A stretch of DNA of 64,000 nucleotides from Ancylobacter radicis (lineage in GTDB: Bacteria; Pseudomonadota; Alphaproteobacteria; Rhizobiales; Xanthobacteraceae). Under the pieces are notes generated by a model. It saw only the letters and a program-made list of their open reading frames with translations. It ran no database searches and had not been told where the DNA came from. Made by a program: the position numbers and the translations under genes. How positions within the stretch are numbered: position 1 is the stretch's first letter; every line of letters begins with the position of its first letter. Positions 4,672 to 23,492 of the stretch are shown piece by piece. The stretch lies in NCBI RefSeq assembly GCF_018449475.1, contig NZ_JAHCQH010000017.1, positions 248,001 through 312,000 of the forward strand, written 5' to 3'.

Positions 4672-5606
4672 AGAACAATCTCCATCCCGTCTTCGGCGAT
4701 TTCCCACCCGGCCCGGTTGGCCGTGACGCGCTCGGGCGAGCCGTCGATCAGCACCGGGTTCGTATTGTTGATATGCACGTAGATGCGCCGGCCGATATCG
4801 AGGCCGGCCAGAGCCGCCATCGAGCCTTCGTCGCCCGACATGCTCATATGACCCATGCGCTTGCCGGTCTTGGTGCCGACACCGGCCTGCACCATCTCGT
4901 CATCGCGCCAGAGCGTGCCGTCGAAGAACACCGCATCGGCGCCAGCGAGGCGGTCGCGCAGGGCGTTGGTCATGGTCGCGCAGCCAGGAATATACAGGGC
5001 GCGCCGGCCGCCGGCCTCGATTTCGACGCCGATGGTCTGCTCACCCTCGATATCGGTCACGAGGGCGCCCGTCTGTGCTTCCTCGGTCTTTTCCAGATAG
5101 AGCGCGATCTTGCCCGGAACCGGGAAGATGGTCGCCGTGACCCCTTCGACCAGTTCAAACGAGGCGCCCAGCTCCACATCGCGGCGGGCCACCACATCCT
5201 CGGCGAGGACGTCGAAGGCGCTGCTGGCGCGCAGCACGCGATGGATGGCCGGGGTGGCGAACAGGGTGAAGGGCTGCGCCTCGCGCAGGCTCAGCAGCCC
5301 GGCGACATGGTCGATATCGCCATTGGTCAAAAGCACGGAGGCCACCGGCGAATGCCGGCGGCCTCCTCGCGGATGCAGTGCCGGCACAGCTTGAATTTGC
5401 GTCACTATTTCAGGGGCGCAGTTCACCAATGCCCACCGCTCGCCATCCGCACTGACCGCCAGGGACGACTGGGTCCGGCGGCGGACACGGGGATCACCAT
5501 CCCAAGCGAGGGTGCAAACCGGACATCGGCAGTTCCATTGGGGAAAGCCCCCGCCGGCTGCCGAGCCGAGGACAGTGAGATGCAGGCGGGACGCGGAATT
5601 AAGCAT
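4668..5606 (-). CDS. pqqB: PqqB, metallo-beta-lactamase-fold PQQ biosynthesis protein
   Basis: A 312-residue protein. The N-terminus LTVLGSAAGGGFPQWNCRCPVC is typical of PqqB and holds the Cys cluster. The beta-lactamase HxHxDH metal motif is degenerate here (NGDIDHVAGLL), as is normal in PqqB. Near the C-terminus MGHMSMSGDEGSM and YVHINNTNPVL are also family signatures. PqqB is thought to hydroxylate the crosslinked Glu-Tyr intermediate in the cytoplasm. The gene follows pqqA by 35 bp and overlaps pqqC. Confidence 0.96.
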   Translation of the reverse strand: MLNSASRLHLTVLGSAAGGGFPQWNCRCPVCTLAWDGDPRVRRRTQSSLAVSADGERWALVNCAPEIVTQIQAVPALHPRGGRRHSPVASVLLTNGDIDHVAGLLSLREAQPFTLFATPAIHRVLRASSAFDVLAEDVVARRDVELGASFELVEGVTATIFPVPGKIALYLEKTEEAQTGALVTDIEGEQTIGVEIEAGGRRALYIPGCATMTNALRDRLAGADAVFFDGTLWRDDEMVQAGVGTKTGKRMGHMSMSGDEGSMAALAGLDIGRRIYVHINNTNPVLIDGSPERVTANRAGWEIAEDGMEIVL

Positions 5607-5641
5607 GGATACGCCGTTCCCGCGCCGCCCGCGCCTCAGGC

Positions 5642-5719
5642 TCAGAAATCAGCCGGGAAATAGGCGTTGACTTCCATGCCGACGCAGACTTCGACGATAC
5701 GAGGAGTGTTCCAGGCCAT
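5642..5719 (-). CDS. pqqA: PQQ precursor peptide PqqA (25 residues)
   Basis: A 25-codon gene reading MAWNTPRIVEVCVGMEVNAY with a short FPADF tail. Glu16 and Tyr20 form the EVNAY core that is crosslinked and excised to become PQQ. GGAGGAAGTT lies directly before the ATG at 5719. An in-frame ATG 12 bp upstream (5731) would add MEEV but has no better ribosome site. It is the first gene of the pqq operon and lies just downstream of the duplicated TTCTTATG element at 5754-5772. Confidence 0.97.
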   Translation of the reverse strand: MAWNTPRIVEVCVGMEVNAYFPADF

Positions 5720-5753
5720 AACTTCCTCCATGTAATTTTGCTTCCATTTACTT

Positions 5754-5772
5754 CATAAGAAGATCATAAGAA
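5754..5772 (-). promoter_or_regulatory. Tandem TTCTTATG direct repeat upstream of pqqA
   Basis: On the coding strand of pqqA, TTCTTATG occurs twice (5772-5765 and 5761-5754) with an 11-bp period and spacer ATC. The second copy ends 34 bp before the pqqA start codon. The same 8-mer with the same period occurs at 13090-13108. An 11-bp direct repeat is characteristic of OmpR/PhoB-family binding sites, and such a regulator is encoded at 5900-6589. Assignment of the regulator is inference. Confidence 0.6.
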
Positions 5773-5899
5773 GCAGTTGATTTTACGGCTTAATTAGCCG
5801 CATGAGTGATTGTGGTGTCTGTTTCTTTTTTCGTCAAGTAAGCCTTCACACAACTGTGTAGGCACACATAATACCAGAACACATACGCGCGAGACCAGT

Positions 5900-6589
5900 T
5901 CAGGCCACGCCCGGCTCGAACATGAATCCCCTGCCGCGCACGGTGACGATCATCTGCCCGCCCTCCGCCGTGGCTTCGGCCAGCTTGTGCCGGAGATAGC
6001 CGACATAAACGTCGACGACGTTCAGCGACGCCCCGCCATGGCCGGCCCAGAGCGCGGCGAAAATGTCCGCCCGCGCCAGCGGCTCGCCGGCATGACGCAT
6101 CAGCAGCGCCAGCAATTCCACCTCGCGCTCGGTGAGGCGTACCCTTGTGCCGCCGATCTGCGCCTGCCGCGTGTCGAGGTCGAGCGTGACCGGCCCGGCG
6201 GTGAGCACGCGCTGCTCCTCCTCGCCATTGGAGCGCCGCAGCGCCTGCACCTTCACCCGCGCCAGCAACTCCTCGAAGGCGAAGGGCTTGATGATGTAAT
6301 CGTCGGCGCCGGCCAGCAGGCCCTCGGTGCGCTCATTCACGCTGGAGCGGGCCGAGAGCATGATGATCGGCGCCGTCTGGCCGCCAGCGCGCAGCGCCCG
6401 GCACACCTCGATGCCCGAGCGGCCGGGCAGCATCACGTCGAGGATGATGGCTTCCAGCGGTTTGCCCGTGGCGGCGCGCAGCGCCTCCTCGCCGTCTCCG
6501 ACCAGTTCGACCTGATAGCTCTCCGACGCGAAGCCCCGCCGGAGCAGCGAGCCGATGTCGGGGTCGTCCTCGACGATCAGAATGGTCAT
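5900..6589 (-). CDS. OmpR/PhoB-family response regulator
   Basis: A 229-residue protein starting at ATG 6589, which overlaps the stop of the upstream kinase gene by 4 bp. The receiver domain (1-120) has the acidic pair ED at residues 7-8, the phospho-acceptor Asp51 in ILDVMLPG, and a conserved Lys in IIKPFAFEELLARV. Residues ~130-225 are a winged-helix DNA-binding domain with LTEREVELLALLMRH and VVDVYVGYLRHKL. It sits directly downstream of its kinase and tail-to-head with the pqqA promoter region, so it is the best candidate regulator for the TTCTTATG repeats in this locus. Confidence 0.93.
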   Translation of the reverse strand: MTILIVEDDPDIGSLLRRGFASESYQVELVGDGEEALRAATGKPLEAIILDVMLPGRSGIEVCRALRAGGQTAPIIMLSARSSVNERTEGLLAGADDYIIKPFAFEELLARVKVQALRRSNGEEEQRVLTAGPVTLDLDTRQAQIGGTRVRLTEREVELLALLMRHAGEPLARADIFAALWAGHGGASLNVVDVYVGYLRHKLAEATAEGGQMIVTVRGRGFMFEPGVA

Positions 6590-8202
6590 TGCGCCGCCTC
6601 CAGATTGATGTCGGGCACGCGGGCCGGCAGGCGCACGATCACGCAGGTGCCGCTCGGCGCATGTTCCCCGGTACTGCTCTCGATGTCGATCCGGCCGCCA
6701 TGCCGGTCCACGATCCATTTGGCAAGGGCCAGCCCGATGCCGAAGCCGGTGCCCTCGCGCCCCTCCCCCTGCCCGCGCCAGAACCGCTCGAAGACATGGG
6801 GCAGATCCCGCGCCGGAATGCCGGTGCCACGGTCGCGCACGCGGATCACCATGGCGTCGCCGTCGCGGGCGGCTTCAAGCCGCACCGGCTGGCCGGGCGT
6901 GGAATGGCGCACCGCGTTGGCCACCAGTCCGTCGAGCACCTGCCGCAGCCACTCGCGGTCGGCCTCCAGCGCGAGGCCGTCACCGGCGCAGACCACCTCC
7001 AGCGGCAGTCCCGCCGCGCGGGCCACCGGCAACATGCTCTCGCGCACATCCTCCAGCAGATCGGCGACGAGGAACGGCCGGCGCTCCAGCTCGATCTGGC
7101 CGCTCTCCGAGCGGGCGATGCGCAGCAGGTCCTCGACGCGCCGGTGCAGCCGGCGGGCGCGGTTCTGGATCACCAGCAACGCCGCGCGCAGATCCTCCTC
7201 GCTCGGACGCCCGCCGCGCAGCGTCACCTCCGCTTCGCCGAGGATCACGGTGAGCGGGGTCCGCAGTTCATGGCTGACATCGGTGAAGAAGCGGCGCCGG
7301 GCGAGATCGACATTTTCCAGCCGGACATTGGCCGCGCGCAGCTCCGCGGTGCGGGCATCGACGATTTCCTGAAGCCGGCGCTGGTCGGAGATCAGCCGCT
7401 GCTCGCGCCGGGCGAGATGAGCGGCCATGCGGTTGAACCGCGCCATGGCAAGGCTCAGCTCGTCATGGCCGGTGACCGTCAGGCGGGTATCGGAACGCCC
7501 CTGCGCGATGGCGGCGGCGGCGGTCGCGACATCGGCGACGCGCTGCACCAGCGAGGAGCCGAGCCGGTGATAGATGAAGATGGAGGCGACAAAGGCCAGC
7601 AGCACGCCGGCCAGCCCCCAGCGGATGACGCGCCCGCGCAGGTCCTGCACCGCGAGCTGGGCGGCGCGGGCATCGGTGCGCTCCTCCTCCATAGCCTGGC
7701 TCAGCGGCGCGCCGAAGCCGGCGGCGAACACATCGAGCGCGACGCGCACGCTGGTGGACGGGTCCGGCCCGGAAAGGGCCGTGGTGATCTGCCGGTCCAT
7801 CACCTCGAAATGGGCGTGCAGGCGGGCGACGGTGCGGCTGCGCGCCGCCATCAGCGTGCGCTGCTCCTCGTCGCCATAGCGCATCACATCATTGGCGAGC
7901 GCCATCTCGAAACGATGGAAGGCGGCCAGCGTGGCCGCCCGCGCGGCACCCAGCGCCTCCTCGCCCCGCGGGCCGGGCTGCTGCGCGGCCTGAAGCGAGA
8001 TCAGCGCGTAATCGCCGATTCGGCCGGAGATCGAGGACAGCAATTCCAGCCGGCTCTGCGCCGAGACGAGGCGGTCCAACTGGTTGTTGGTCGTGCCGAG
8101 GGCCGCGACCAGAAGTGCGGCGGAAGCGGCCGTCACCAGCACGGCAACCGCGAGCAGCAGCGCCATGCGCGTGCGCAGCGAGGAAAACAGGACCCGCCCC
8201 AT
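6586..8202 (-). CDS. Membrane sensor histidine kinase partnered with the adjacent regulator
   Basis: A 538-residue protein. One transmembrane helix lies at about 12-35 and another at 194-213, enclosing a ~155-residue, mostly helical periplasmic sensor with no recognised ligand motif. A HAMP segment follows, then the dimerisation helix with His311 in FTDVSHELRTPLTVI, the N box DGLVANAVRHS, and ATP-binding glycine boxes RDRGTGIPARDLPHVFERFW and GTGFGIGLAL. It overlaps the response-regulator gene by 4 bp. Location between the pqq genes and fae suggests sensing of an alcohol, formaldehyde or metal signal, but the signal cannot be read from sequence. Confidence 0.93.
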   Translation of the reverse strand: MGRVLFSSLRTRMALLLAVAVLVTAASAALLVAALGTTNNQLDRLVSAQSRLELLSSISGRIGDYALISLQAAQQPGPRGEEALGAARAATLAAFHRFEMALANDVMRYGDEEQRTLMAARSRTVARLHAHFEVMDRQITTALSGPDPSTSVRVALDVFAAGFGAPLSQAMEEERTDARAAQLAVQDLRGRVIRWGLAGVLLAFVASIFIYHRLGSSLVQRVADVATAAAAIAQGRSDTRLTVTGHDELSLAMARFNRMAAHLARREQRLISDQRRLQEIVDARTAELRAANVRLENVDLARRRFFTDVSHELRTPLTVILGEAEVTLRGGRPSEEDLRAALLVIQNRARRLHRRVEDLLRIARSESGQIELERRPFLVADLLEDVRESMLPVARAAGLPLEVVCAGDGLALEADREWLRQVLDGLVANAVRHSTPGQPVRLEAARDGDAMVIRVRDRGTGIPARDLPHVFERFWRGQGEGREGTGFGIGLALAKWIVDRHGGRIDIESSTGEHAPSGTCVIVRLPARVPDINLEAAQ

Positions 8203-8371
8203 GCCTTTGCCCGAATCCCCGCCTTGCCCCGAATCCCGGCCAGAAAGACATCACCAGCCGACGCAGCGAACCTGCCGCAGCGAGAATGATTCCATGGACG
8301 CTGCCCCAGCGCACGCTGCGACGCAGCAGAGCGCGGGCGGCACGGTCAAGGTGGAAGGCTGAAGGCGGGCC

Positions 8372-8581
8372 TCAGATGTCCTGGCCGGCCTTCCCGGGAG
8401 GCGCACAGCGCCACTTCAGCACCTTCCACTTGGGATGGGTGCCGCTCCACTCGGCGATCACCGGCAGCGCGCTCATCATGCATTGCGCCGGTACACCGGT
8501 GGATTCGAGGCTGACCGACAGCGCCTCTTCCCGGCAGGTGCCGGGGCTGGCGATCAGGCAGATAGACAGGATCAGTTCCAT
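8372..8581 (-). CDS. Small conserved protein of unknown function (69 residues)
   Basis: Starts at ATG 8581 (MELILSICLIASPGTC); the longer frame upstream lacks protein-like composition. It has four cysteines (8, 17, 34, 59), a CMMSALPVIAEW helix and an HPKWKVLKWRC segment. I recall similar small proteins, with a C-terminal W-x-HP-x-W-x-V-x-x-W-x-C pattern, across alphaproteobacteria, all without assigned function. The hydrophobic N-terminus could be a buried strand rather than a signal peptide. Upstream and downstream it is flanked by TGCTGC/GCAGCA dyads. No link to methanol oxidation is established. Confidence 0.65.
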   Translation of the reverse strand: MELILSICLIASPGTCREEALSVSLESTGVPAQCMMSALPVIAEWSGTHPKWKVLKWRCAPPGKAGQDI

Positions 8582-9055
8582 GCAGCAGGTCCTCTGGCGT
8601 GAGACACGGATCCCGGGCGCTTCCTTTCTGTGTCCGGGAACGTTCTCGATCGCGTTTCCGGCCCTGCTGCGGTGCAGCAATTCTTGGACCAGTTTAGCGG
8701 ATGCTGCCTATACGCAGCAACCGGGGGATGAGTTCAGCTTGCGGTCGCCAAAAGATTGAGCTGCCGGACCGGGGAGTGCTCACGGCTTGCCCATGGCGCG
8801 TTCTTCCGCATCGGCGGTGCCGGGCGGAGGCCTTTTGACGCGCCCCGCCGGAAAGCGGCGACCTGCGTCGGGCGAGCCGAAGAATCCCTTGCAGTTAAAG
8901 GCGAAGCAAGCCTAGTCTCTGCCCCGTAACGTGTCTGGTCGTGCTATCGGGCCAACCGGTTTGGTGACCCAAACGCTGCAACAAAGATAGCCGGGACATT
9001 GATGGAGGGCATTCCCAGCCCTCATTCATGCAACCCCGTTCCTGGGAGGAATTAC
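8582..9055. other. 474-bp intergenic region between the small protein and fae
   Basis: No convincing gene. It contains two TGCTGC/GCAGCA inverted repeats (8665-8679 and 8702-8719). A possible sigma-70-like promoter for fae has TTGCAG at 8889-8894 and TAGTCT at 8913-8918 with an 18-bp spacer. The palindrome AACCGGTT lies near 8955. No copy of the TTCTTATG element was found here, so fae may be controlled differently from pqq and xox. Confidence 0.5.
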
Positions 9056-9565
9056 ATGGCCAAGATCAATAAGGTGATGATCGGCGAGTCGCTCGTCGGC
9101 GACGGCAACGAAGTTGCCCATATCGACCTGATCATCGGACCGCGCGGCAGCGCGGCGGAAAGCGCCTTCCTCAATGCGCTGACCAACAACAAGGACGGCT
9201 TCACCTCGCTCCTCGCGGTGGTGACCCCGAACCTGCTCGCCAAGCCCAACACGATCCTCTTCAACAAGGTTACCATCAAGGACGCCCGTCAGGCCGTCCA
9301 GATGTTCGGACCGGCGCAGTACGGCGTCGCCAAGGCGGTCGTGGACAGCGTCGCCGAAGGCGTGATCCCGGAAGAAGAAGCCGACGACCTGTACATCTCG
9401 GTCGGCGTGTTCATCCACTGGGAAGCGGCGGACGACGCCAAGATCCAGCAGTTCAACTATGAGGCGACCAAAGAGGCGCTCAAGCGCGCTGTCGAAGGCT
9501 CGCCGTCGGTAAAGGAAGTGCTGGCTCAGGCCGGCACCGCCAAGCACCCCTTCGCCGCCGCTTAG
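9056..9565 (+). CDS. fae: Formaldehyde-activating enzyme Fae
   Basis: A 169-residue protein starting at ATG 9056 after GGGAGGAATTAC; an in-frame ATG at 8999 is rejected for lack of homology in the extension. The sequence is highly typical of Fae: [20 protein letters not shown] with catalytic His22, [26 protein letters not shown] and GVFIHWEA. Fae condenses formaldehyde with tetrahydromethanopterin to methylene-H4MPT in the cytoplasm, detoxifying and channelling the product of methanol oxidation. H4MPT-pathway genes beyond fae are not in this window. Transcribed alone and followed by two terminators. Confidence 0.97.
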
Positions 9566-9740
9566 ATCGGAAGCAACCCTGGGCAGAAAACACCACCGCC
9601 CGCGGCCCCTACCTATCCGAAGGGCCTGCTCCAGCGGTTGGCTGCGATCTTTCTGAACAAGTGACATCGGCGTGCCGGCGTGACTTGAGCGATGGAGATG
9701 GCGGGCAGTCCGCCCTCTCCCTACCGCCGACTTTCTCCCA

Positions 9741-9809
9741 AGCCCGGAGCTTTCGCTCCGGGCTTTTTCATGTCGGAACCCTTGCCCGGAGCCTTCGCTC
9801 CGGGCTTTT
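9741..9809 (+). terminator. fae: Tandem duplicated rho-independent terminators after fae
   Basis: AGCCCGGAGC/GCTCCGGGCT with a TTTC loop and following T-run (9741-9768) is repeated nearly exactly as GCCCGGAGC/GCTCCGGGC with a CTTC loop and T-run (9784-9809). Both stems are perfect and T-rich 3' ends follow. The two copies share flanking TTC-x-x-GTCGGA-like sequence, so this is probably a local duplication. It insulates highly expressed fae from the convergent ABC operon. Confidence 0.85.
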
Positions 9810-9832
9810 CAAGTTCGGACGTCAGGGCGGGT

Positions 9833-10576
9833 TCAGCCGCGCGGCGTTGCCGGCTCGGTCCGCGGGATGATCCCCATGCGGATGAGGAAGGCGTCGGCCA
9901 GTGCCGGCGAGGCGCGCTCGCGCAGCCCGAGCGTCACCTTCACATCCCGCGCTACGGTGGCGGGACTGCCCTCTAGCAGAACGATGCGGCTCGCCAGCGC
10001 CACCGCCTCGCGCGGGTCATGAGTGACGAACATCACGCTCGCCGGGCGGCGGGCCAATAGCCGGCGCAGCAACTCGCGCAACCGCTCGGCGGCGGGCTGG
10101 TCGAGCGAGACGAAGGGCTCATCCATCAGCAGCACGTCCGGCTCTATGGCAAAGGCGCGGGCGAGCGCGGCGCGGCGCTGCTGGCCGAGCGAGAGCCGCT
10201 CGGGATAGGCGCTCGCGAGTTCGGCGAGCCCCACCTCCTCCAGCATGCGCCGCGCGCTCGTACGGGCAGCCATCCCCTCGCCCAGCGGCAGGGCGACGTT
10301 CTCCAGCACCGTCCGCCAGGGCAGGAGACGCGGATTCTGGAAGGCATAGGCAATGCGCGGATTCGCCGTACCGAAGCGCACCGCGCCGCGATAGGTGTCG
10401 TCCAGACCGGCGGCGATGTTGAGCAGCGTCGTCTTGCCGAGCCCCGAGGACCCGAGCAGCACGAGGAACTCACCCGCCGCCACATCGAGGCGAAAATCGC
10501 GAAAGATCTCCCGCGCCGGCGTGCCGGTTCGGGCGGGATACCGCTTCTCGGCGATGTCGAGGGTGATCGCGCTCAT
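9833..10576 (-). CDS. ABC transporter ATP-binding protein, nitrate/sulfonate/taurine type
   Basis: A 247-residue ATPase starting at ATG 10576, overlapping the permease stop by 4 bp. Walker A is GSSGLGKTT, the Q-loop YAFQNPRLLPWRTV is typical of the SsuB/TauB/NrtD group, the signature is LSLGQ rather than LSGGQ, and Walker B is VLLMDEPF followed by the H-loop FVTHDPREA. It energises import with the permease and binding protein encoded upstream. The substrate is unknown; placement within the methanol-oxidation locus is suggestive only. Confidence 0.92.
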   Translation of the reverse strand: MSAITLDIAEKRYPARTGTPAREIFRDFRLDVAAGEFLVLLGSSGLGKTTLLNIAAGLDDTYRGAVRFGTANPRIAYAFQNPRLLPWRTVLENVALPLGEGMAARTSARRMLEEVGLAELASAYPERLSLGQQRRAALARAFAIEPDVLLMDEPFVSLDQPAAERLRELLRRLLARRPASVMFVTHDPREAVALASRIVLLEGSPATVARDVKVTLGLRERASPALADAFLIRMGIIPRTEPATPRG

Positions 10577-11322
10577 CGCCGCCACCCGTTGGCCCAGCGT
10601 TCCCAGGGCTGGAGAAGGCCCATCTCGATGATCTGCACCACCACGGTGAAGGCGAGCGCATAAGCGAGCACGGTCGCCACGTCGAACATCTGGAACGCTG
10701 TCTGCAACTCGAAACCGACGCCGTTGGAGCGGCCGAGCAGTTCCACCACCAGCACGATCTTCCAGGTGAGCGCGAGGCCCGAGCGGGCGCTGGCGGTGAA
10801 GAAGGGCACGAGCTGCGGCAGAGTCACATGGCGCAGCGTGCGCCAGCGCCCGAAACGATAGACCCGCGCCATCTCGTCAAGATCACGCGAGAGGGCGGCC
10901 GCGCCCTCGCGCATCGTCACCGCCACATTGGGGATCTTGTTGATCGACACGGCGGTGATCGCCGCCGCTTCGGTGAGGCCGAACCAGACATAGCAGAGGA
11001 TGATGACGACCAGCGCCGGCAAATTGAGCAGTACGATCACCCACGGCCCGAACAGCTCGTTCAGGCGGGGCGAGCGGCCGAGCGCGATGCCGAGGGCCGA
11101 GCCGATCGCCATGGCGATGAAGAACGCCGCCGCCACCCGCGCCAGCGTGATGGCGATGTTGCGCTGAAGCGCCCCGCCCTCCGCCGCCCGCTGCATCGCC
11201 GCCAGCACGGCGGCCGGGCTCGGCAGCAACGGGGACGCCGCCCAGAGCGCCGCCCCCTGCCAGACCAGCAGCAGCGCGAGCAGGGACGCTGCCGTCATGC
11301 CGAGGCGAGAGGCGGTGGACAC
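10573..11322 (-). CDS. ABC transporter permease, nitrate/sulfonate/taurine type
   Basis: A 249-residue membrane protein. I start it at GTG 11322, 7 bp past the binding-protein stop; ATG 11298 (MTAASLL) is an alternative, while the longer frame upstream overlaps the neighbour. About six transmembrane helices are visible, with the inner-membrane coupling motif EMARVYRFGRWRTLRHVTLPQ typical of BPD_transp_1 permeases. Overlaps the ATPase gene by 4 bp. Middle gene of a four-gene importer operon with the DUF3280-like protein. Confidence 0.88.
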   Translation of the reverse strand: MSTASRLGMTAASLLALLLVWQGAALWAASPLLPSPAAVLAAMQRAAEGGALQRNIAITLARVAAAFFIAMAIGSALGIALGRSPRLNELFGPWVIVLLNLPALVVIILCYVWFGLTEAAAITAVSINKIPNVAVTMREGAAALSRDLDEMARVYRFGRWRTLRHVTLPQLVPFFTASARSGLALTWKIVLVVELLGRSNGVGFELQTAFQMFDVATVLAYALAFTVVVQIIEMGLLQPWERWANGWRR

Positions 11323-11329
11323 GAGCGCC

Positions 11330-12325
11330 CTACTCCCCGATCGGCGCGAAAAGCGCGCGGTCAAAGCGCGGGCTCTGCCCGACCAGATCCGCCCCGCCAA
11401 GCTGCGCCAGCACCGCAAACAGCTTGTCGCAGGAGGCGCGCTCGGGCTCGCCGAAACTGCCGGGAATGCCAGCGCGGTAATAGTCGCGCAGCCGGGTGAA
11501 CTCCGCATCGTCGGCCGCCTGCATGATCGGGCGGATGCGCGTCCAGGCGTCGTCCGAGGTGGCGAGCACCGTGTTCGCCGCCGCCGCCGCGCGCAGGAAG
11601 CTGGCGAGGACGGCGCCCTTCTCGCCCATGATGGCGGTGCGCCAGACATAGCCGACCAGCGGCGGAGACGGGTCGATGCCGAGGCCGGTGACGACCTCCT
11701 TCATGTCGAGCAGGCGGCGGAAGCCGCGCGCGTCGAGCCGCGCGGCATAGGGCCAGAAGGTCAGCACGGCATCGACACGGCCGAGCGCGAGCTGTTCGCT
11801 CACCAGAGGCGCGGCGCCATAGACCGGCTCGCATATATCGATGAGGTCGGCACCGAGCCTCGCCTTGGCATAGGCGCGCAGCAGCAGCCAGCTCTTGTCC
11901 ACCGCCCCGCCGGCCACGCCGAGCTTGCGGCCCTTGAGATCGGCCAGCGTCTTCACCGGCCCGTCCGGGGCCACCATCAGCGCGCCCAGCGCCGTTGAGA
12001 AGGGGGCAAAGCGCATGGGCTCGCCATCGTTGAGGCGACGCATGGCCCAGAGCCAATCGCTGACGATGAGGTCGATATCGCCCGCCTGCAGCGCCACCGT
12101 GGTCGCCTGACCGCCGGCGAAGTTGACGCTCTCAAGCGCGAAACCCTCGCGGGCATCGAGCTTCTCGGCGCGGATGGTGTCGAGCAGCCAGTTGAGCGTG
12201 CCGAATTTCAGCGTGCCGACCCGCAGCTTCGGCAGCGCGGGCTGCGCCGTGGCGCGCGTGGCGAGCGGCGCCAGCGCGGCGGCGGCGAGCAGCGCGCGGC
12301 GCGTCAGCGCGATGGAGGGGATCAT
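11330..12325 (-). CDS. ABC transporter substrate-binding protein (SsuA/NMT1-like)
   Basis: A 331-residue protein with a twin-arginine-like signal (LTRRALLAAAALAPLATRATA). The mature fold resembles the SsuA/THI5-like periplasmic binding proteins: VGTLKFGTLNWLLDTI, ALQAGDIDLIVSDWLWA, GRKLGVAGGAVDKSWLLLR and GRVDAVLTFWPYAARL. Ligands of this class include sulfonates, nitrate, taurine and pyrimidine precursors. The recurring placement of such an importer with DUF3280 genes beside PQQ-alcohol dehydrogenase genes hints at a cofactor, metal-complex or C1 substrate, which is inference. Start overlaps the upstream gene by 4 bp. Confidence 0.88.
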   Translation of the reverse strand: MIPSIALTRRALLAAAALAPLATRATAQPALPKLRVGTLKFGTLNWLLDTIRAEKLDAREGFALESVNFAGGQATTVALQAGDIDLIVSDWLWAMRRLNDGEPMRFAPFSTALGALMVAPDGPVKTLADLKGRKLGVAGGAVDKSWLLLRAYAKARLGADLIDICEPVYGAAPLVSEQLALGRVDAVLTFWPYAARLDARGFRRLLDMKEVVTGLGIDPSPPLVGYVWRTAIMGEKGAVLASFLRAAAAANTVLATSDDAWTRIRPIMQAADDAEFTRLRDYYRAGIPGSFGEPERASCDKLFAVLAQLGGADLVGQSPRFDRALFAPIGE

Positions 12326-12858
12326 GGGGCGGCCTTTCCGGTCATCGGCGGATCGAGCAATCGGTTGCGCACCAGATAGGAGATCCCCCGCGCCCAGGAT
12401 TCATCCGTGTTGTTGCGAATGTCGGCGCTGCCGGCGCGCAGCACGGCGCCGGTGGCCACGTCGCGCACCTGGAAATTGATGTTGAGGATGAGGTTGGAGA
12501 CCTTCTGCACGAGGCCGATCACCTCGATATCGGCGCCAAGCGCGCGGGCGATCGGCAATTCGCAGCCATTGCAGTTGCGCAGCGGCGCCGCCTCGGTAAG
12601 CGCCGCCTGCTGGGGCGCGAGATCGACCACCTGATAGCCGGCCGCCGTGAGACGGGCGCGGACATCCGCGCTGATCTGCGCGAGGCGGCGCATTTCCTCG
12701 GGTTTGGGACCACGCGGATCAAACTCGCCGCTGGTATCCAACAACTCGAAATCAAACACCGCCACGCGCGTCGCCGCCTGGGCGGGGGCCACAAGGGCGG
12801 CGCTCACCAGCCCGACCGTCAGCAGCATGAGGGCGCCGATCCGCGACAGCTCTGTCAT
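12322..12858 (-). CDS. DUF3280/DUF2380-like secreted protein
   Basis: A 178-residue protein starting at ATG 12858. A longer frame to 13080 exists, but the signal peptide MTELSRIGALMLLTVGL...PAQA fits the shorter start. The mature region has AVFDFELLDTS, AGYQVVDLAPQQAAL, a RNCNGCELPIARALGAD motif and VQKVSNLILNINFQVRD, matching the DUF3280-type domain as I know it. The C-x-x-C pair (CNGC) may form a disulfide. It is the promoter-proximal gene of the importer operon, diverging from the plus-strand transport operon. Confidence 0.82.
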   Translation of the reverse strand: MTELSRIGALMLLTVGLVSAALVAPAQAATRVAVFDFELLDTSGEFDPRGPKPEEMRRLAQISADVRARLTAAGYQVVDLAPQQAALTEAAPLRNCNGCELPIARALGADIEVIGLVQKVSNLILNINFQVRDVATGAVLRAGSADIRNNTDESWARGISYLVRNRLLDPPMTGKAAP

Positions 12859-13029
12859 TCCCTGGCCTTCCGATGGTGCCGGCACGTCGCCCGAACAGCC
12901 TGACTGGCTGATCGAGGAACCCGTCTCCGGCTTATGGCGCGGGAACGCCGCTCCCGGCCTCGTTTCCGGTCTCCGGCGCGGCGTCTCGCGGGTGGCGATC
13001 ATATCGTCTGGAATCTTGCCCGCAATAGC

Positions 13030-13064
13030 CGGGAAAAAGTTCCCGAATTTATACGTCACGTATA
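13030..13064. promoter_or_regulatory. Two adjacent operator-like dyads in the divergent promoter
   Basis: CGGGAA-AAAG-TTCCCG is a perfect 6-bp inverted repeat (13030-13045). TATACG-TCA-CGTATA is a second perfect 6-bp inverted repeat (13050-13064). They are 4 bp apart, lie 26 bp before the TTCTTATT/TTCTTATG tandem, and have the size of dimeric regulator sites. No partner regulator can be named. Confidence 0.45.
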
Positions 13065-13089
13065 GTGAGATCATCAACAATAGTTCATA

Positions 13090-13108
13090 TTCTTATTAAA
13101 TTCTTATG
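13090..13108 (+). promoter_or_regulatory. Tandem TTCTTATT/TTCTTATG direct repeat upstream of the plus-strand transport operon
   Basis: TTCTTATT (13090-13097), spacer AAA and TTCTTATG (13101-13108) repeat with an 11-bp period on the plus strand, 85 bp before the ATG at 13194. The 8-mer, period and orientation relative to the downstream gene match the element before pqqA. This is directly visible; binding by the local OmpR-type regulator is inferred. Confidence 0.6.
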
Positions 13109-13193
13109 TTATCTAATGTGTTGAATACTTCGATATGTCTGCTTAGACTTTTACCCGACGGCATAGAAAAGTTCCGAGAACGTCAGCCGTGGG

Positions 13194-14453
13194 ATGGAAA
13201 CGCCAATGAGATCGAGGGCTCGCGCCGCCGCCACGGCGCTCGTCGTCTTTGCTTGCGCCGCCCTGCCGGCCGCAGCCCAGAACGCCACGCCGCCCGCCGG
13301 CGCGCCGGCGGCCCCCCCGCTCGCGGCCAAGCCGGCGGCCGCCATCGCGCCCGAGCAGACCTTCCGCATCGGGGTGATCCGCCAGATTCCCGAGCCGCCG
13401 CCCTGGATCGCCCCGCTGCAGATGCCGCCGGACAATCTCGGCATCGCCGGCGCCGAACTCGGCATCAAGGACAATCTGACCAGCGGGCGCTTCCTCAAGC
13501 TCGACTACAAGCTGGCCACCGAGACCGTGCCGACCGATGGCGATCCGCTGCCGGTGGCGCAGAAACTGGTCGAGGACGGCAACCGCTTCCTCCTGCTGGA
13601 TGTGCCGGCCGAGCAGCTTCTGCGCATCGCCGACGCGCTGAAGGACAAGGACGTCCTGCTGATCAATGTCGGCGCGACCGATGACCGCCTGCGCATGGCC
13701 GATTGCCGGGCGAACGTGTTCCACATCGCGCCGAGCCGGTCGATGCTGACGGACGCGCTGGCCCAGTTCCTCGTCACCAAGCAATGGCGCAACTGGTTCC
13801 TGATGGTCGGGCGCACCGATGCCGACAAGCTTTATGCCGAGGCGGTGCGCCGCTCGGCCCGGAAGTTCGGCGGCAAGATCGTCGCCGAGAAGACCTGGGA
13901 TTATGGCCCGGATGCCCGCGCCACCGCGCAGTCGGAAGTGCCGCGCGGCACGCAGGTCGGCGAGTACGACATGCTGATCGTCGCCGACGAGCTGGGCGAG
14001 TTCGGCGATATCCTGCCCTACAATACCTGGCTTTCCCGGCCGATCGCCGGCACGCAGGGGCTGATGCCGCTCTCCTGGCACCCGACCATGGAGAACTGGG
14101 GCGCCTCGCAGCTTCAGAGCCGTTTCTTCAAGCTGTCCAACCGCCTGATGCAACCGCTGGACTTCCAGATGTGGGAGGGCGTGTTCGCCATCGGCTCGGC
14201 GAGCCTGAAGACGCGCTCCAGCGACACGGCCAAGGTGCGTGCGCAACTGCTGGCGCCCGATTACGACCTGCCGGTCTTCAAGGGCGTGGCGGCCAGCTTC
14301 CGCGACTGGGACCACCAGTTGCGCCAGCCGATCCTGCTGACCCACGCCACCAATACGGTGACGCTCTCGCCGCAGGCCGGCTTCCTGCACCAGTCCTCGC
14401 CGCTCGACACGCTCGGCTTCGACCGGCCGGAGACGACGTGCACGTTCAAATGA
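13194..14453 (+). CDS. ABC substrate-binding protein of the PQQ-dependent-catabolism type
   Basis: A 419-residue secreted protein; ATG 13194 is taken, with ATG 13206 (MRSRARAAATAL) an equally plausible start. Signal peptide to about residue 29, then a Pro/Ala-rich linker and a periplasmic-binding fold with FRIGVIRQIPEPPPWIAPLQ, RFLLLDVPAEQLLRIAD and NVFHIAPSRSMLTDALAQFL. It fits the family named PQQ-dependent catabolism-associated ABC transporter substrate-binding protein, related to branched-chain amino-acid binding proteins. First gene of a six-gene operon with a propeller, a cupredoxin-like protein and an ABC exporter-type pair. Confidence 0.85.
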   Translation: METPMRSRARAAATALVVFACAALPAAAQNATPPAGAPAAPPLAAKPAAAIAPEQTFRIGVIRQIPEPPPWIAPLQMPPDNLGIAGAELGIKDNLTSGRFLKLDYKLATETVPTDGDPLPVAQKLVEDGNRFLLLDVPAEQLLRIADALKDKDVLLINVGATDDRLRMADCRANVFHIAPSRSMLTDALAQFLVTKQWRNWFLMVGRTDADKLYAEAVRRSARKFGGKIVAEKTWDYGPDARATAQSEVPRGTQVGEYDMLIVADELGEFGDILPYNTWLSRPIAGTQGLMPLSWHPTMENWGASQLQSRFFKLSNRLMQPLDFQMWEGVFAIGSASLKTRSSDTAKVRAQLLAPDYDLPVFKGVAASFRDWDHQLRQPILLTHATNTVTLSPQAGFLHQSSPLDTLGFDRPETTCTFK

Positions 14454-14490: not shown

Positions 14491-15474
14491 ATGAAACGCC
14501 ACCTGCTGCTTTCCGCCAGCCTCGCGCTCGGCGGACTCCTGATGGCCGACGCCCTGCCGGCGTTCGCCCAATCCCGCGCCTTCATCTCCAATGAGCGCGA
14601 TCACACCATGACCGTGCTCGACATGGACACGCTGAAGGTGATCGAGACGGTGAAGACCGGCCGCCGGCCGCGCGGCATCACGGCGAGCCCGGACGGCAAG
14701 CTGATCTATGTCTGCGCCTCCGACGACAACCGCGTCGAGGTTTATGACGCCAAGACGCTAAAGCTGGTGAAGACGCTGCGCTCGGGGCCCGACCCGGAAC
14801 TGTTCGTGCTGCACCCGTCGGGCAACCCGCTCTACATCGCCAACGAAGATGACAACATGGTCACGGTGGTGAATGTCGAGAATAACGACCTGATCGCCGA
14901 GATCCCGGTCGGCGTCGAGCCGGAAGGCATGGGCATCAGCCCGGACGGCAAATACATGGTCAATACGTCCGAAACCACCAACATGGCCCATGTGGTGGAC
15001 ACGGCGACCAATGAGATCATCGAGAACATTCTCGTCGATTCCCGCCCGCGCATCGCCGAGTTCTCGGCCGACGGCAAGCAGCTCTGGGTCTCCTCCGAGG
15101 TCGGCGGCACCGTGTCGGTGATCGACCCGGCGACCTGGAAGATCATCAAGAAGATCTCCTTCAAGATCCCCGGCGTGGCCGATGATGCCATTCAGCCGGT
15201 CGGCGTGCGTATCACCAAGGACGGCTCGAAGGCCTTCGTCGCGCTTGGCCCGGCGAACCGCGTGGCAGTCATCAATCCGAAGACGCTGGAAGTGGAGAAA
15301 TATCTCCTCGTCGGCCAGCGCGTCTGGCAGCTCGGCTTCACGCCGGACCAGAAATTCCTGATCTCGACCAACGGCAATTCCAACGACGTGTCGATCATCG
15401 ACGTCGCCGCCGAGAAGGTCACCAAATCCGTGACGACCGGCCGCGCCCCCTGGGGCGTCGTGGTCGTCCCGTAG
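14491..15474 (+). CDS. YVTN beta-propeller protein of the PQQ-dependent-catabolism type
   Basis: A 327-residue secreted protein with a signal peptide ending about residue 26 (AFA|QSRA) and a GGAGG site before ATG 14491. Repeated blade motifs TVLDMDTLKVIETVKTGRRP, EVYDAKTLKLVKTL, TVVNVENNDLIAEIPVG and SVIDPATWKIIKKI show a YVTN seven-bladed propeller. The family is known beside PQQ alcohol dehydrogenase genes. Homologous ABC-associated genes (ped system) in Pseudomonas putida are reported to support growth that depends on rare-earth elements, so a role in handling the metal or its carrier is plausible. Confidence 0.9.
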   Translation: MKRHLLLSASLALGGLLMADALPAFAQSRAFISNERDHTMTVLDMDTLKVIETVKTGRRPRGITASPDGKLIYVCASDDNRVEVYDAKTLKLVKTLRSGPDPELFVLHPSGNPLYIANEDDNMVTVVNVENNDLIAEIPVGVEPEGMGISPDGKYMVNTSETTNMAHVVDTATNEIIENILVDSRPRIAEFSADGKQLWVSSEVGGTVSVIDPATWKIIKKISFKIPGVADDAIQPVGVRITKDGSKAFVALGPANRVAVINPKTLEVEKYLLVGQRVWQLGFTPDQKFLISTNGNSNDVSIIDVAAEKVTKSVTTGRAPWGVVVVP

Positions 15475-16028: not shown

Positions 16029-16826
16029 ATGACGGCCCTGCCCATGCCGGAACTGCCGGGATCGCTCCCCCTCGGAAGCGCACCCGCCCTCACCGTCAAC
16101 CACGTCACCCACGCCTTCGGCGCCCGCAAGGCGCTGGACGATGTGAGCCTCTCTGTGCCGACCGGCAGCTTCACCGCCCTGCTCGGCCCCAATGGCGCGG
16201 GCAAGACCACCCTCTTTTCCCTCATCACCCGGCTTTACGACAACCGCACCGGCCGCATCGACGTGCTGGGCCATGATGTGCGGCGCGCGCCCGCCGCGGC
16301 GCTGAGCAAGCTTGGCGTGGTGTTCCAGGCCCGCACGCTCGATCTCGAACTGTCCGTGGTTCAAAACCTGCTCTATCACGCCACCCTGCACGGCATGGGT
16401 TTTGCCGCCGGGCGGCGCCGGGCGCTGGAGGTGCTCGCGCAGGCGGGCCTCGCCGACCGGGCCGGCGACAAGGTGCGCCGCCTCTCCGGCGGGCAGATGC
16501 GCCGGGTCGAGATCGCCCGCGCGTTGATGCACCGCCCGAGCCTGCTGCTGCTCGACGAGCCGACCGTCGGCCTCGATATCGCCTCGCGCGCCGCGCTGGT
16601 GGCGCAGGTGCGCGCGCTGGTGGCGCAGGAAGGCATCGGCGTGCTCTGGGCGACCCATATCATCGAGGAAATCACCGCCACGGATCGGATCGTCGTGCTG
16701 CATCGCGGCCGCATCCGCGCCGAGGGCGCCCATGACGCCGTGCTGGCGCAGGCCGGTGCCGCCGATGTCTCCGAGGCATTCCTCACGCTGGTCGGCGATG
16801 GGCCGGATGCGGGAGCCGCGGCATGA
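16029..16826 (+). CDS. ABC transporter ATP-binding protein of the PQQ-dependent-catabolism type
   Basis: A 265-residue ATPase. Walker A GPNGAGKTTL, Q-loop VVFQARTLD, signature LSGGQMRRVEIARAL, Walker B LLLLDEPT and the H-loop WATHIIEEI are intact. The NodI/DrrA-like architecture pairs with an ABC-2 permease, normally an exporter arrangement. The gene overlaps the permease gene by 4 bp. The family is annotated as PQQ-dependent catabolism-associated; the related P. putida ped transporter is linked with rare-earth-dependent growth. Confidence 0.93.
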   Translation: MTALPMPELPGSLPLGSAPALTVNHVTHAFGARKALDDVSLSVPTGSFTALLGPNGAGKTTLFSLITRLYDNRTGRIDVLGHDVRRAPAAALSKLGVVFQARTLDLELSVVQNLLYHATLHGMGFAAGRRRALEVLAQAGLADRAGDKVRRLSGGQMRRVEIARALMHRPSLLLLDEPTVGLDIASRAALVAQVRALVAQEGIGVLWATHIIEEITATDRIVVLHRGRIRAEGAHDAVLAQAGAADVSEAFLTLVGDGPDAGAAA

Positions 16827-17665
16827 GCGAGGCCCCGCGCCCCTTCCGCCTGTCGCTCGCCGGCTATGCGATCTGCATGGCCGGCATCTGCTGGCGCGAG
16901 GGGCTGCGCTTTCTCAACCAGCGCGGCCGCTTCCTCTCGGCGCTGGTGCGCCCGCTGGTGTGGCTGTTCATCTTCGCCGCCGGATTTCGTTCGGTGCTGG
17001 GCGTCTCGATCATCCCGCCCTATGACACCTATGTGCTCTATGAAGTCTATGTGACGCCGGGTCTGGTGGCGATGATCCAGCTGTTCAACGGCCTGCAATC
17101 CTCGCTCTCGATGGTCTATGACCGCGAGGTCGGGGCGATGCGCATCCTGCTGGTCAGCCCCTATCCGCGCTGGTTCCTGCTGGTCTCCAAGCTCGTCGCC
17201 GGCATCTGCGTGTCGCTGTTGCAGGTCTATGCCTTCCTCGCCGTCGCCTGGTTCTGGGAGGTGGAGCTGCCGCCGATCGGCTATCTCGCGGTGGTCCCGG
17301 CGCTGCTGCTCTCCGGGCTGATGCTCGGCGCCATGGGGCTGCTGATGTCGTCCGTGTTCCGGCAGATGGAAAACTTCGCCAGCGTGATGAACTTCGTCAT
17401 CTTCCCGATGTTCTTCGCCTCCTCCGCCCTCTACCCGCTATGGCGGGTGCAGGAGAGCAGCCTCGTCCTGTGGTGGATCTGCACCTTCAATCCGTTCACC
17501 TATGCGGTGGAACTGATACGCTTCGCGCTCTACGGTCAGTTCAATCCTCTCGCCGCGCTGGTGGTGGCGGGTTGCGCGCTTGTGTTCCTTGCCGCCTCGA
17601 TCCTCGCTTATGATCCGTCCGCCGGCGTCATGGCCCGTCGCGGCGGGCCGGAAGACGCCAAATGA
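16823..17665 (+). CDS. ABC-2 type permease of the PQQ-dependent-catabolism type
   Basis: A 280-residue protein with about six transmembrane helices, including LVRPLVWLFIFAAGFRSVLG, LLVSKLVAGICVSLLQVYAF and a PxxFASSALYPLWRV segment typical of ABC-2 permeases. ATG overlaps the ATPase stop by 4 bp. The ATPase/permease pair probably forms a homodimeric-type ABC-2 complex in the inner membrane. Direction of transport is not evident; the operon also encodes a periplasmic binding protein, which would be unusual for a pure exporter. Confidence 0.9.
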   Translation: MSEAPRPFRLSLAGYAICMAGICWREGLRFLNQRGRFLSALVRPLVWLFIFAAGFRSVLGVSIIPPYDTYVLYEVYVTPGLVAMIQLFNGLQSSLSMVYDREVGAMRILLVSPYPRWFLLVSKLVAGICVSLLQVYAFLAVAWFWEVELPPIGYLAVVPALLLSGLMLGAMGLLMSSVFRQMENFASVMNFVIFPMFFASSALYPLWRVQESSLVLWWICTFNPFTYAVELIRFALYGQFNPLAALVVAGCALVFLAASILAYDPSAGVMARRGGPEDAK

Positions 17666-21163: not shown

Positions 21164-21182
21164 TCTAAGATTCTCATAAGGA
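21164..21182 (-). promoter_or_regulatory. xoxG: Weak tandem copy of the TTCTTATG element upstream of xoxG
   Basis: On the coding strand TCCTTATG (7 of 8 matches) is followed after AGA by ATCTTAGA (5 of 8), with the same 11-bp period as the pqqA and 13090 elements. It lies 101 bp before the xoxG start. The second half is degenerate, so this is a tentative site. Confidence 0.35.
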
Positions 21183-21200: not shown

Positions 21201-21239
21201 GGGGCCTGGCGCGCCGGTAAAAACCAGCGGCCAGGCCCC
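21201..21239 (-). terminator. Hairpin between xoxF and xoxG
   Basis: GGGGCCTGGC and GCCAGGCCCC form a perfect 10-bp stem around a 19-nt loop, 63 bp after the xoxF stop. There is no T-run after the stem on the xoxF strand. It may act as a partial terminator or a 3' stabiliser that lets xoxF accumulate above xoxG. Confidence 0.55.
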
Positions 21240-23348: not shown

Positions 23349-23380
23349 AATAAGAACTCTTATGAAATACGTTTCTTATT
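23349..23380. promoter_or_regulatory. xoxF: Three TTCTTAT half-sites upstream of xoxF
   Basis: AATAAGAA (23349-23356) abuts CTCTTATG (23357-23364), making a dyad ATAAGA-AC-TCTTAT. TTCTTATT follows at 23373-23380 and is the inverse of the first half-site. The half-site is the one found before pqqA and at 13090, but the spacing (inverted, and 16 bp between the two plus-strand copies) differs from the 11-bp tandem. It lies about 240-270 bp before the xoxF start. Confidence 0.5.
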
Positions 23381-23492
23381 ATGATTTTGCTGCAAGAGCG
23401 AAATGATATAAAATATACCACGAAATGAATGCTGCGTTTTCGTGGTTTTGTAGCGAGTATTCGCGCATGGCGCGAGTGTGCAGTGCAGCATA

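Follow-up and report, generated by a model that had tools for sequence, protein, structure and literature searches.

Regulators of the OmpR/PhoB family bind DNA as two monomers on direct half-sites one helical turn apart, and their tandem operators, of the pho box type, consist of two direct repeats 11 bp apart that overlap the -35 element of the activated promoter or lie just upstream of it. AAGAAA hexamers were reportedly described by Zhang and Lidstrom in 2003 in methanol-oxidation promoters of Methylobacterium. The closest described system is MxbDM of Methylorubrum and Methylobacterium, whose OmpR-type regulator and kinase genes stand directly before pqqA, with mxbM adjoining pqqA in the AM1 and DM4 gene order (PMC9320726). 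In the published accounts, as far as their available sections go, MxbDM is required for mxa expression in strain AM1 and for the lanthanide switch, MxbM is required for holding xox down in AM1, and a search found neither a described MxbM binding site nor a list of its direct targets. Lanthanide import has been demonstrated for relatives of the PedA1A2BC/LutABEF ABC importer (PMC6839425), and the accessible sections of the literature yielded no regulator box for the PedA1A2BC or LutABEF operons.

The window analysed here, a stretch of 64,000 nucleotides from Ancylobacter radicis (contig NZ_JAHCQH010000017.1, positions 248,001 to 312,000), resembles the MxbDM locus in its gene order and in that the putative target genes, mxa and pqq, come from the same pathway (Table 1). 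The protein encoded at 5900-6589 has a receiver and an OmpR-type winged-helix domain, and its gene adjoins that of a sensor kinase and lies directly before pqqA. The kinase-regulator-pqqA order is common to the window and Methylobacterium fujisawaense, which also has the box described below before pqqA; the regulator and its syntenic counterpart in that species share 52% identity over 223 aa, and the helix stretch NVVDVY(V/I/L)GYLR is present in 34/34 aligned regulator orthologs. We found exactly one match to the regulator at E<=1e-50 in each of the 30 genus genomes and no match at that threshold in 31 genomes of other genera. Domain content and gene order thus make the pair candidates for MxbM and MxbD.

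Table 1. Positions in the window of the genes, boxes and predicted elements discussed in the text
Feature	Position	Strand	Remarks
pqqA, 25-aa precursor peptide	5642..5719	-	start set by alignment
pqqA 5' leader, predicted, ~83 nt	5720..5802	-	82-89 nt in 30/30
Leader hairpin P2, encloses box	5738..5776	-	covariation in 15/30 genomes; arm-swap
pqqA box TTCTTATG-ATC-TTCTTATG	5754..5772	-	in predicted 5' leader of pqqA
Predicted leader hairpin P1, at predicted 5' end	5784..5802	-	single-sequence folds
pqqA -10 element CACAAT, predicted	5809..5814	-	17-bp spacer; hexamer starts CA in 30/30
pqqA -35 element TTGACG, predicted	5832..5837	-	CTTGACG in 30/30 genus genomes
OmpR/PhoB-family response regulator, MxbM candidate	5900..6589	-	Pfam Response_reg + Trans_reg_C
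Sensor histidine kinase, MxbD candidate	6586..8202	-	HAMP/HisKA/HATPase; synteny
Importer-operon box TTCTTATT-AAA-TTCTTATG	13090..13108	+	centre ~-57 from predicted start
Importer-operon -35 element TTGAAT, predicted	13121..13126	+	TTGA 13 bp after box, 30/30 genus genomes
Importer-operon -10 element TAGACT, predicted	13144..13149	+	17-bp spacer
Substrate-binding protein, PedA1/LutA type (TIGR03863)	13194..14453	+	above curated cut-off
YVTN beta-propeller, PedA2 type (TIGR03866)	14491..15474	+	above curated cut-off; PedA2 described in PMC6839425
ABC ATPase, PedB/LutE type (TIGR03864)	16029..16826	+	above curated cut-off
ABC permease, PedC/LutF type (TIGR03861)	16823..17665	+	above curated cut-off
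Weaker box-like TCCTTATGAGAATCTTAG, possible further site	21165..21182	-	between xoxF and xoxG

The preliminary description reported two tandem repeats in this window, and we reproduced their coordinates, strands and 11-bp period. Each box is a tandem of two directly repeated half-sites with a period of about 11 bp, as in the operators of PhoB and OmpR, whose half-site is different. Read on its complementary strand, a box shows a short purine run related to the AAGAAA hexamers, which, unlike the boxes, are not known to form a direct repeat with an 11-bp period. At up to three mismatches the window held two tandems, the pqqA and importer boxes only, compared to a mean of 0.15 in the shuffled window, where 1 of 100 shuffles gave two or more. 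The pattern TTCTTATN4TTCTTAT had two exact matches in the organism's own genome (4.2 Mb, 25 contigs), which are the same two boxes, and two further sites at one mismatch, one of them adjoining mxaF. For a one-mismatch site at G000:C6:113275 (locus L003), the other genus genomes offered no counterpart with the same letters, and it was set aside.

Across the 30 genus genomes CTTATNANNTTCTTA gave 81 matches compared to 4 for the reversed pattern: pqqA is preceded by 29 of them and the 13194 operon by 30, another 20 adjoin mxaF and 2 lie just 3' of xoxF, so that 79 of the 81 fall at three homologous places. With one mismatch, TTCTTATN4TTCTTAT produced 77 matches against 8 for the control in the same genomes and no excess (19 against 24) in the 31 genomes of other genera. 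The cores TCTTA and TTCTTA of the pqqA box and CTTAT(T/A)ANNTTCTTAT of the importer box were each retained in 30/30 genus genomes, counts that are inflated by the relatedness of the genomes. Random scatter across the genome and lack of conservation in orthologous promoters had been named beforehand as outcomes against a shared box; within the genus the scatter is absent and the orthologous promoters retain the box. Both boxes are real and well beyond chance.

The pqqA and importer boxes both lie in AT-rich gaps of a GC-rich genome. Such placement is what a chance match of AT-rich intergenic sequence would look like, but the count of 81 against 4 and the fixed 13-bp spacing at the importer operon in 30/30 genomes leave that explanation a negligible probability, and we rejected a chance origin for the genus on the shuffles and on both pattern counts (77 against 8; 81 against 4).

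The transport operon starting at 13194, which the preliminary description called PQQ-associated, is by its four signature families likely a lanthanide importer of the PedA1A2BC/Lut type, with all four signature proteins encoded in one gene run as in the described importers (PMC6839425). Its box, in the gap between the operon and a DUF3280 gene, stands just upstream of the predicted -35 element as in PhoB/OmpR operators, and is followed in 30/30 genus genomes by a -10 element TANNNT at 16 or 17 bp spacing. The importer box thus appears to occupy a usual activator position. This site sets the locus apart from MxbDM as described, and we know of no earlier description of a box before a lanthanide importer. 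Two spaced short blocks ahead of genes of one pathway could also be read as a promoter element recognised by an alternative sigma factor, but promoter-like -35 and -10 elements lie beside the box at both window sites, the distance to the start codon ranges from ~35 to >80 nt, and the box is reversed at mxa, making this reading highly improbable.

The third place is the mxaF locus (calcium methanol dehydrogenase), where the box, in reverse orientation, lies between mxaF and divergent genes for a MoxY-type kinase and a LuxR-type regulator. The mxaF alignment comprised 25 of the 27 mxaF-positive genus genomes, G024 and G027 being left out; the position and strand of mxaF sites vary between genera, and other genes of the locus we take, from gene order and recall only, to be mxaJ, mxaG, mxaI, mxaR and mxaZ. 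In the xox region of the window, TCCTTATGAGAATCTTAG was the third-best PWM match (16.3 compared to 36), and most genus genomes have similar letters at this position.

We scored the box in other genera against the presence of a regulator of the 5900-6589 type. Before pqqA (at least 10/12 letters) it was found in 20/30 regulator-positive and 0/22 regulator-negative genomes, 14 of the 22 coming from one genus; before the importer (at least 11/14) in 20/24 and 0/6; and at mxaF (at least 12/14) in 11/24 and 0/1. Controls shuffled by letter, not by dinucleotide, gave ~2%, ~1% and ~1%, respectively. The pqqA scoring covered 30 of 32 regulator-positive genomes with pqqB (G148 and G370 were left out) and dropped 1 of 23 regulator-negative loci, where no pqqA was found; L205 was counted as a miss after a wrong pqqA call, its true leader having an 11-bp tandem. 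For the importer, 30 loci from 34 genomes with matches were scored, with L311, which ends at a contig edge, counted as a miss, and some of the matches outside genus g46 are at non-equivalent positions. The pqqA box was present in 8/8 scored genomes of genus g93, which we take to be Methylobacterium because its pqqA and regulator resemble those of M. fujisawaense. Genus g46, assigned to Methylopila from one identical regulator sequence, had a weak pqqA box (5/13 at >=10/12) and a strong importer box. Matches upstream of exbBD/tonB-like genes were also seen in g46. A search with TCTTAKN5TCTTAK in 33 regulator-positive genomes outside the genus showed a modest excess (29 matches, control 11); we assigned 17 of the matches to methanol-oxidation genes and 3 to the region ahead of an exbBD-like operon, and the remaining 9 were at other or unassigned places. 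Presence of the box follows that of the OmpR-type regulator in the genomes scored.

These results bear on whether the shared operator might belong to another co-travelling regulator, such as the LuxR-type MxaX or an MxcE/MxaB-like protein. The divergent kinase and LuxR-type genes beside the mxa box would fit this, as would the published action of several regulators on mxa in strain AM1. We consider it unlikely, given that box presence tracks the 5900-6589-type regulator and that G020, G022 and G029, in which no mxaF was found (the search was for mxaF, not mxaX), keep both the pqqA and importer boxes. Direct repeats at 11 bp also suit an OmpR-type protein rather than a LuxR-type dimer.

At pqqA the geometry is different. 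The promoter-to-box distance is 66-68 nt in 30/30 genus genomes, with a -10 hexamer that is weak apart from its conserved CA start, and the box lies ~31-49 nt downstream of the predicted start, its end ~35 nt ahead of the start codon. The proposal of a box ahead of each promoter therefore held for the importer operon (13 bp, 30/30) and failed for pqqA, where the box is downstream of the conserved promoter and in a structured leader; a plain pre-promoter activator site fits the former and not the latter. PhoB/OmpR operators differ in this respect, too. The box is also inside the pqqA leader in Methylobacterium-like genomes. PMC9320726 gives, for strain AM1, a mapped transcription start 95 nt upstream of pqqA; in strain DM4 the only start that dRNA-seq revealed lay before mxbM, with none immediately ahead of pqqA. 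The DM4 data count against the reading proposed below.

Folding of the leaders gave a mean z of -2.9, with 26/30 below and 4/30 above -1.5, and in the arm-swap test of hairpin P2 the result was 0/5000. Run on the complete MAFFT alignment (A1), RNAalifold returned five pairs involving the ribosome-binding region, none of them compensated, and did not find P2. Because the arms shift by 1-3 nt between leaders in A1, we placed the leaders by pairing register: 15 of the 30 share register 42 (A2), five others form A3 and the remaining ten are in neither. The P2 arms co-vary in A2 on some, not all, measures: three of five exceeded all 500 shuffles, whereas no excess was found for pair types (12, shuffles 12.6; 457/500) or for pairs with a double change (5, shuffles 4.3; 223/500), many of the latter being in the same four sequences and so perhaps reflecting few events. 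P2 fits poorly in the leaders of G029, G012 and G025, and in 5/30 leaders the native arm pairs no better than at least 12 of the 29 foreign ones. Rfam 15 gave three matches in window positions 5600-5950 (E 0.55-4.8), all far below gathering, and none at gathering in L203, L209 and L058. From its stability, the arm-swap test and most covariation measures, the existence of P2 is well supported; any role would most likely be in pqqA mRNA stability or translation.

The same evidence, together with the box's place inside the leader of Methylobacterium-like genomes, could mean that the pqqA repeat matters only as an RNA hairpin for mRNA life or translation, its likeness to the importer box being accidental. 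This is very unlikely, as the loop letters of P2 are invariant though pairing does without them, and the same letters recur upstream of the importer promoter and, reversed, at mxa.

We propose, with a probability of about 0.7, that the MxbM-type regulator encoded beside pqqA uses the box as its operator, linking pqqA, the lanthanide importer and mxa. Each of two regulator monomers would occupy one of the direct half-sites, which are a helical turn apart; binding is what we infer here, as are the start sites in the genus and whether each site serves activation or repression. At the importer operon the operator would act from a fixed activator-like position ahead of the promoter, and at the mxa locus from between mxaF and the divergent regulator genes. 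Within the pqqA leader, the letters of the operator would also form part of P2, and bound regulator could block elongation. The downstream site seems poorly compatible with the role of pqqA activator that genetics reportedly assigns to MxbM. A single regulator would thereby tie PQQ-precursor synthesis and lanthanide import to the calcium enzyme, as wiring of the lanthanide switch. More tentatively, and less likely than not, the 19-nt element might have a dual use, serving the lanthanide-switch regulator as DNA operator while forming the core of an RNA hairpin that is conserved, with PqqA supply set by occupancy, through elongation block or release, and by folding. PQQ levels reportedly changed with no matching change in the pqqA transcript (Ramamoorthi and Lidstrom, 1995), which a dual-use element would explain.

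A sequence-defined MxbM site would make the regulon predictable from genomes, and the results suggest one operator common to lanthanide import, the PQQ precursor and the calcium enzyme. They also suggest that cofactor supply may be controlled at a second level, by a structured and so far undescribed leader on the pqqA mRNA.

We confirmed in the window the letters, coordinates and strands of the two tandem repeats of 11-bp period (the box) that the preliminary description had claimed before pqqA and before the transport operon at 13194. The spaced 14-base core without mismatch occurred at just these two sites when the whole genome was searched. The scan of this and related genomes that had been proposed as a check gave 81 matches to CTTATNANNTTCTTA against 4 with the reversed control in the 30 genomes of the genus (own genome included), nearly all at homologous methanol-oxidation places. 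By coordinates, 29 lie before pqqA, 30 before the 13194 operon, 20 near mxaF (at most about 450 bp from its start) and 2 just 3' of xoxF; the genome without a pqqA match (G017) reads CTTAG in its first repeat. With one mismatch allowed, TTCTTATN4TTCTTAT yielded 77 matches against 8 in the control in the same genomes, and 19 against 24 in 31 genomes of other genera. A further box-like site was found between the kinase gene and fae in nine genus genomes; at L049:4785-4802, L044:4754-4771 and L054:4975-4992 such a site lies upstream of an additional exported-protein gene.

Coordinates of the boxes, related elements and selected genes in the window
Feature	Sequence	Position	Strand
pqqA box tandem	TTCTTATG-ATC-TTCTTATG	5754-5772	-
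Importer-operon box tandem	TTCTTATT-AAA-TTCTTATG	13090-13108	+
P2, leader hairpin containing the pqqA box		5738-5776	-
Element upstream of the pqqA promoter	TGGTATTATGTG	about 5865-5876	-
Regulator gene (MxbM candidate)		5900-6589	-
Kinase gene (MxbD candidate)		6586-8202	-
DUF3280 and TauA-like genes beside the importer operon		12322-12858	-
Weaker box-like site between xoxF and xoxG	TCCTTATGAGAATCTTAG	21165-21182	-
Hairpin immediately 3' of xoxF and 5' of the xoxG box	GGGGCCTGGC...GCCAGGCCCC	about 21201-21239	-
Half-sites upstream of xoxF	CTCTTATG and TTTCTTATT	23357-23390	+

The genes for the kinase, regulator, pqqB, fae, TauA-like protein, DUF3280 protein, importer and xoxF are clustered in constant order in 30/30 genus genomes, and mxaF was found in 27/30. 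The regulator has receiver and OmpR-type winged-helix domains, and its partner is a HAMP/HisKA kinase. Four protein families of the PQQ-alcohol-dehydrogenase ABC system (substrate-binding protein, beta-propeller, ATPase, permease) are encoded in the 13194 operon; according to PMC6839425 and PMC7391723, these are the families of PedA1A2BC, a lanthanide importer in Pseudomonas putida, whose close relatives are required for lanthanide growth in M. extorquens. The DUF3280 and TauA-like genes adjoin this operon in 30/30 genus genomes and are divergent from it in the window, with similar neighbours in G112 and G120. At the third locus the box lies between mxaF, whose family match is to PQQ-dehydrogenases, and genes for an exported protein that matched no family, a MoxY-type kinase and a LuxR-type regulator; the names mxaJGIR and mxaZYX are provisional here, given from gene order.

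Every genus genome holds a single match to the regulator, whereas the 31 genomes of other genera gave none at E<=1e-50; at E<=1e-48, matches came from 42 of 397 genomes of the order (12 of 141 genera). Outside the genus, a pqqA box of at least 10/12 was present in 20 of 30 regulator-positive genomes versus 0 of 22 negatives (letter shuffles, 2%), an importer box of at least 11/14 in 20/24 versus 0/6, and an mxaF box of at least 12/14 in 11/24 versus 0/1; these counts are non-independent, since many of the genomes are closely related and one genus supplies 14 of the 22 pqqA negatives. The box also precedes the importer gene in regulator-carrying other genera, scoring 12 to 14 of 14 in 11/11 scored genomes of g46, taken as Methylopila (intact locus scored in 11/13), and lying about 11 bp before TTGACG in G156, of the genus g61. 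Genome-wide, the looser TCTTAKN5TCTTAK gave 29 matches against 11 in the control across 33 regulator-positive genomes. Of these, pqqA accounts for 8, the importer and mxaF for 2 each, the interval between pqqC and xoxF for 1 and the inside of xoxG for 4; 3 precede exbBD-like genes, and 9 fall elsewhere or were not placed. On the simplest reading, the box would serve as operator for the 5900-6589 regulator. Retention of the pqqA and importer boxes in the three genus genomes where mxaF was not found speaks against MxaX as the binder, these genomes being judged on mxaF, not mxaX. The stretch NVVDVY(V/I/L)GYLR occurs in 34/34 aligned orthologs of the regulator, with L just in Frigidibacter, the most distant; since a mycobacterial relative has a near-identical stretch, this conservation alone proves little.

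At the importer, exactly 13 bp separate the end of the box from TTGA, and TANNNT follows 16 or 17 bp after TTGA, in 30/30 genus genomes, placing the box centre near -57, a position that suggests activation. Upstream of pqqA, CTTGACG is invariant (30/30), and a -10 hexamer that starts with CA follows at 17 bp; the box core begins 66-68 nt after the -35 start and hence lies within the predicted leader of 82-89 nt. This position suggests an elongation block, or a role new for the regulator family. As mxbM is needed for pqqA transcription, the downstream box sits uneasily with that requirement. PMC9320726 maps the pqqA start of strain AM1 95 nt upstream, with promoter TTGCAG-N16-CGATAT, and reports by dRNA-seq of strain DM4 no start immediately upstream of pqqA, only one before mxbM; with either start, the pqqA box would be transcribed. 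In g93, taken as Methylobacterium, G307 has both AM1 hexamers, similar ones occur in other genomes, and the box lies 41-51 nt before the pqqA start codon in 8/8 scored genomes; L222 carries two tandem pqqA copies, with a box visible at the first only. Most genus genomes, a few divergent ones excepted, have TGGTATTATGTG (TGGTATAATGTG in many relatives), which resembles a second, extended -10 promoter.

Folded one sequence at a time, most of the 30 leaders showed a pair of hairpins; mean z across the leaders was -2.9 against dinucleotide shuffles (below -1.5 in 26/30). In the 15 leaders sharing one register (12 distinct), 94.9% of P2 cells pair, both-side changes occur in 20 cells versus 7.2 in shuffles, and the covariation score is 0.442 versus 0.238, each reached by 0/500 shuffles; the same set shows no excess of pairs with double change (5 versus 4.3; 223/500) or of pair types (12 versus 12.6; 457/500). 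Sliding the register lowers pairing to 40-53%, and exchanging right arms at random within sets of 16 or 10 dissimilar representatives costs about 4 kcal/mol (0/5000 permutations as good). Leaders in which numerous foreign arms pair no worse than the own arm are those of G029, G012, G004, G024 and G025, and a 5-genome subset gave no clear signal either way. P2 is absent from the RNAalifold result on a MAFFT alignment, and the leader matched no Rfam family at gathering score. We consider P2 likely, though not proven, to be real. It may represent an independent RNA feature, because most of its changing pairs fall beyond the box, whose letters within P2 are constant.

Near xoxF, letters similar to the weaker box-like site occur in most genus genomes, exact genus-pattern matches lie 3' of xoxF in G003 and G025, and four genomes of another family have full boxes within the xoxG start. 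The hairpin 3' of xoxF is highly conserved and is possibly an attenuator or RNA end. Half-sites similar to those upstream of xoxF occur in some genus genomes.

In Methylobacterium, both mxa expression and the lanthanide switch depend on the kinase-regulator pair MxbDM, and xox appears to be repressed by MxbM when lanthanide is absent, according to PMC5018670, PMC11845868, PMC7391723 and PMC5784242. The portions of the literature searched, with subscription journals thinly covered, described no MxbM binding site or pqqA leader structure, which is weak evidence of absence. One regulon would join the PQQ precursor, lanthanide import and the calcium enzyme. In g46, boxes at L236, L237 and L244 (near 2470-2540) lie upstream of an exported protein and exbB/exbD/tonB-like genes, named by eye, and these could tie outer-membrane metal uptake to the box regulon.
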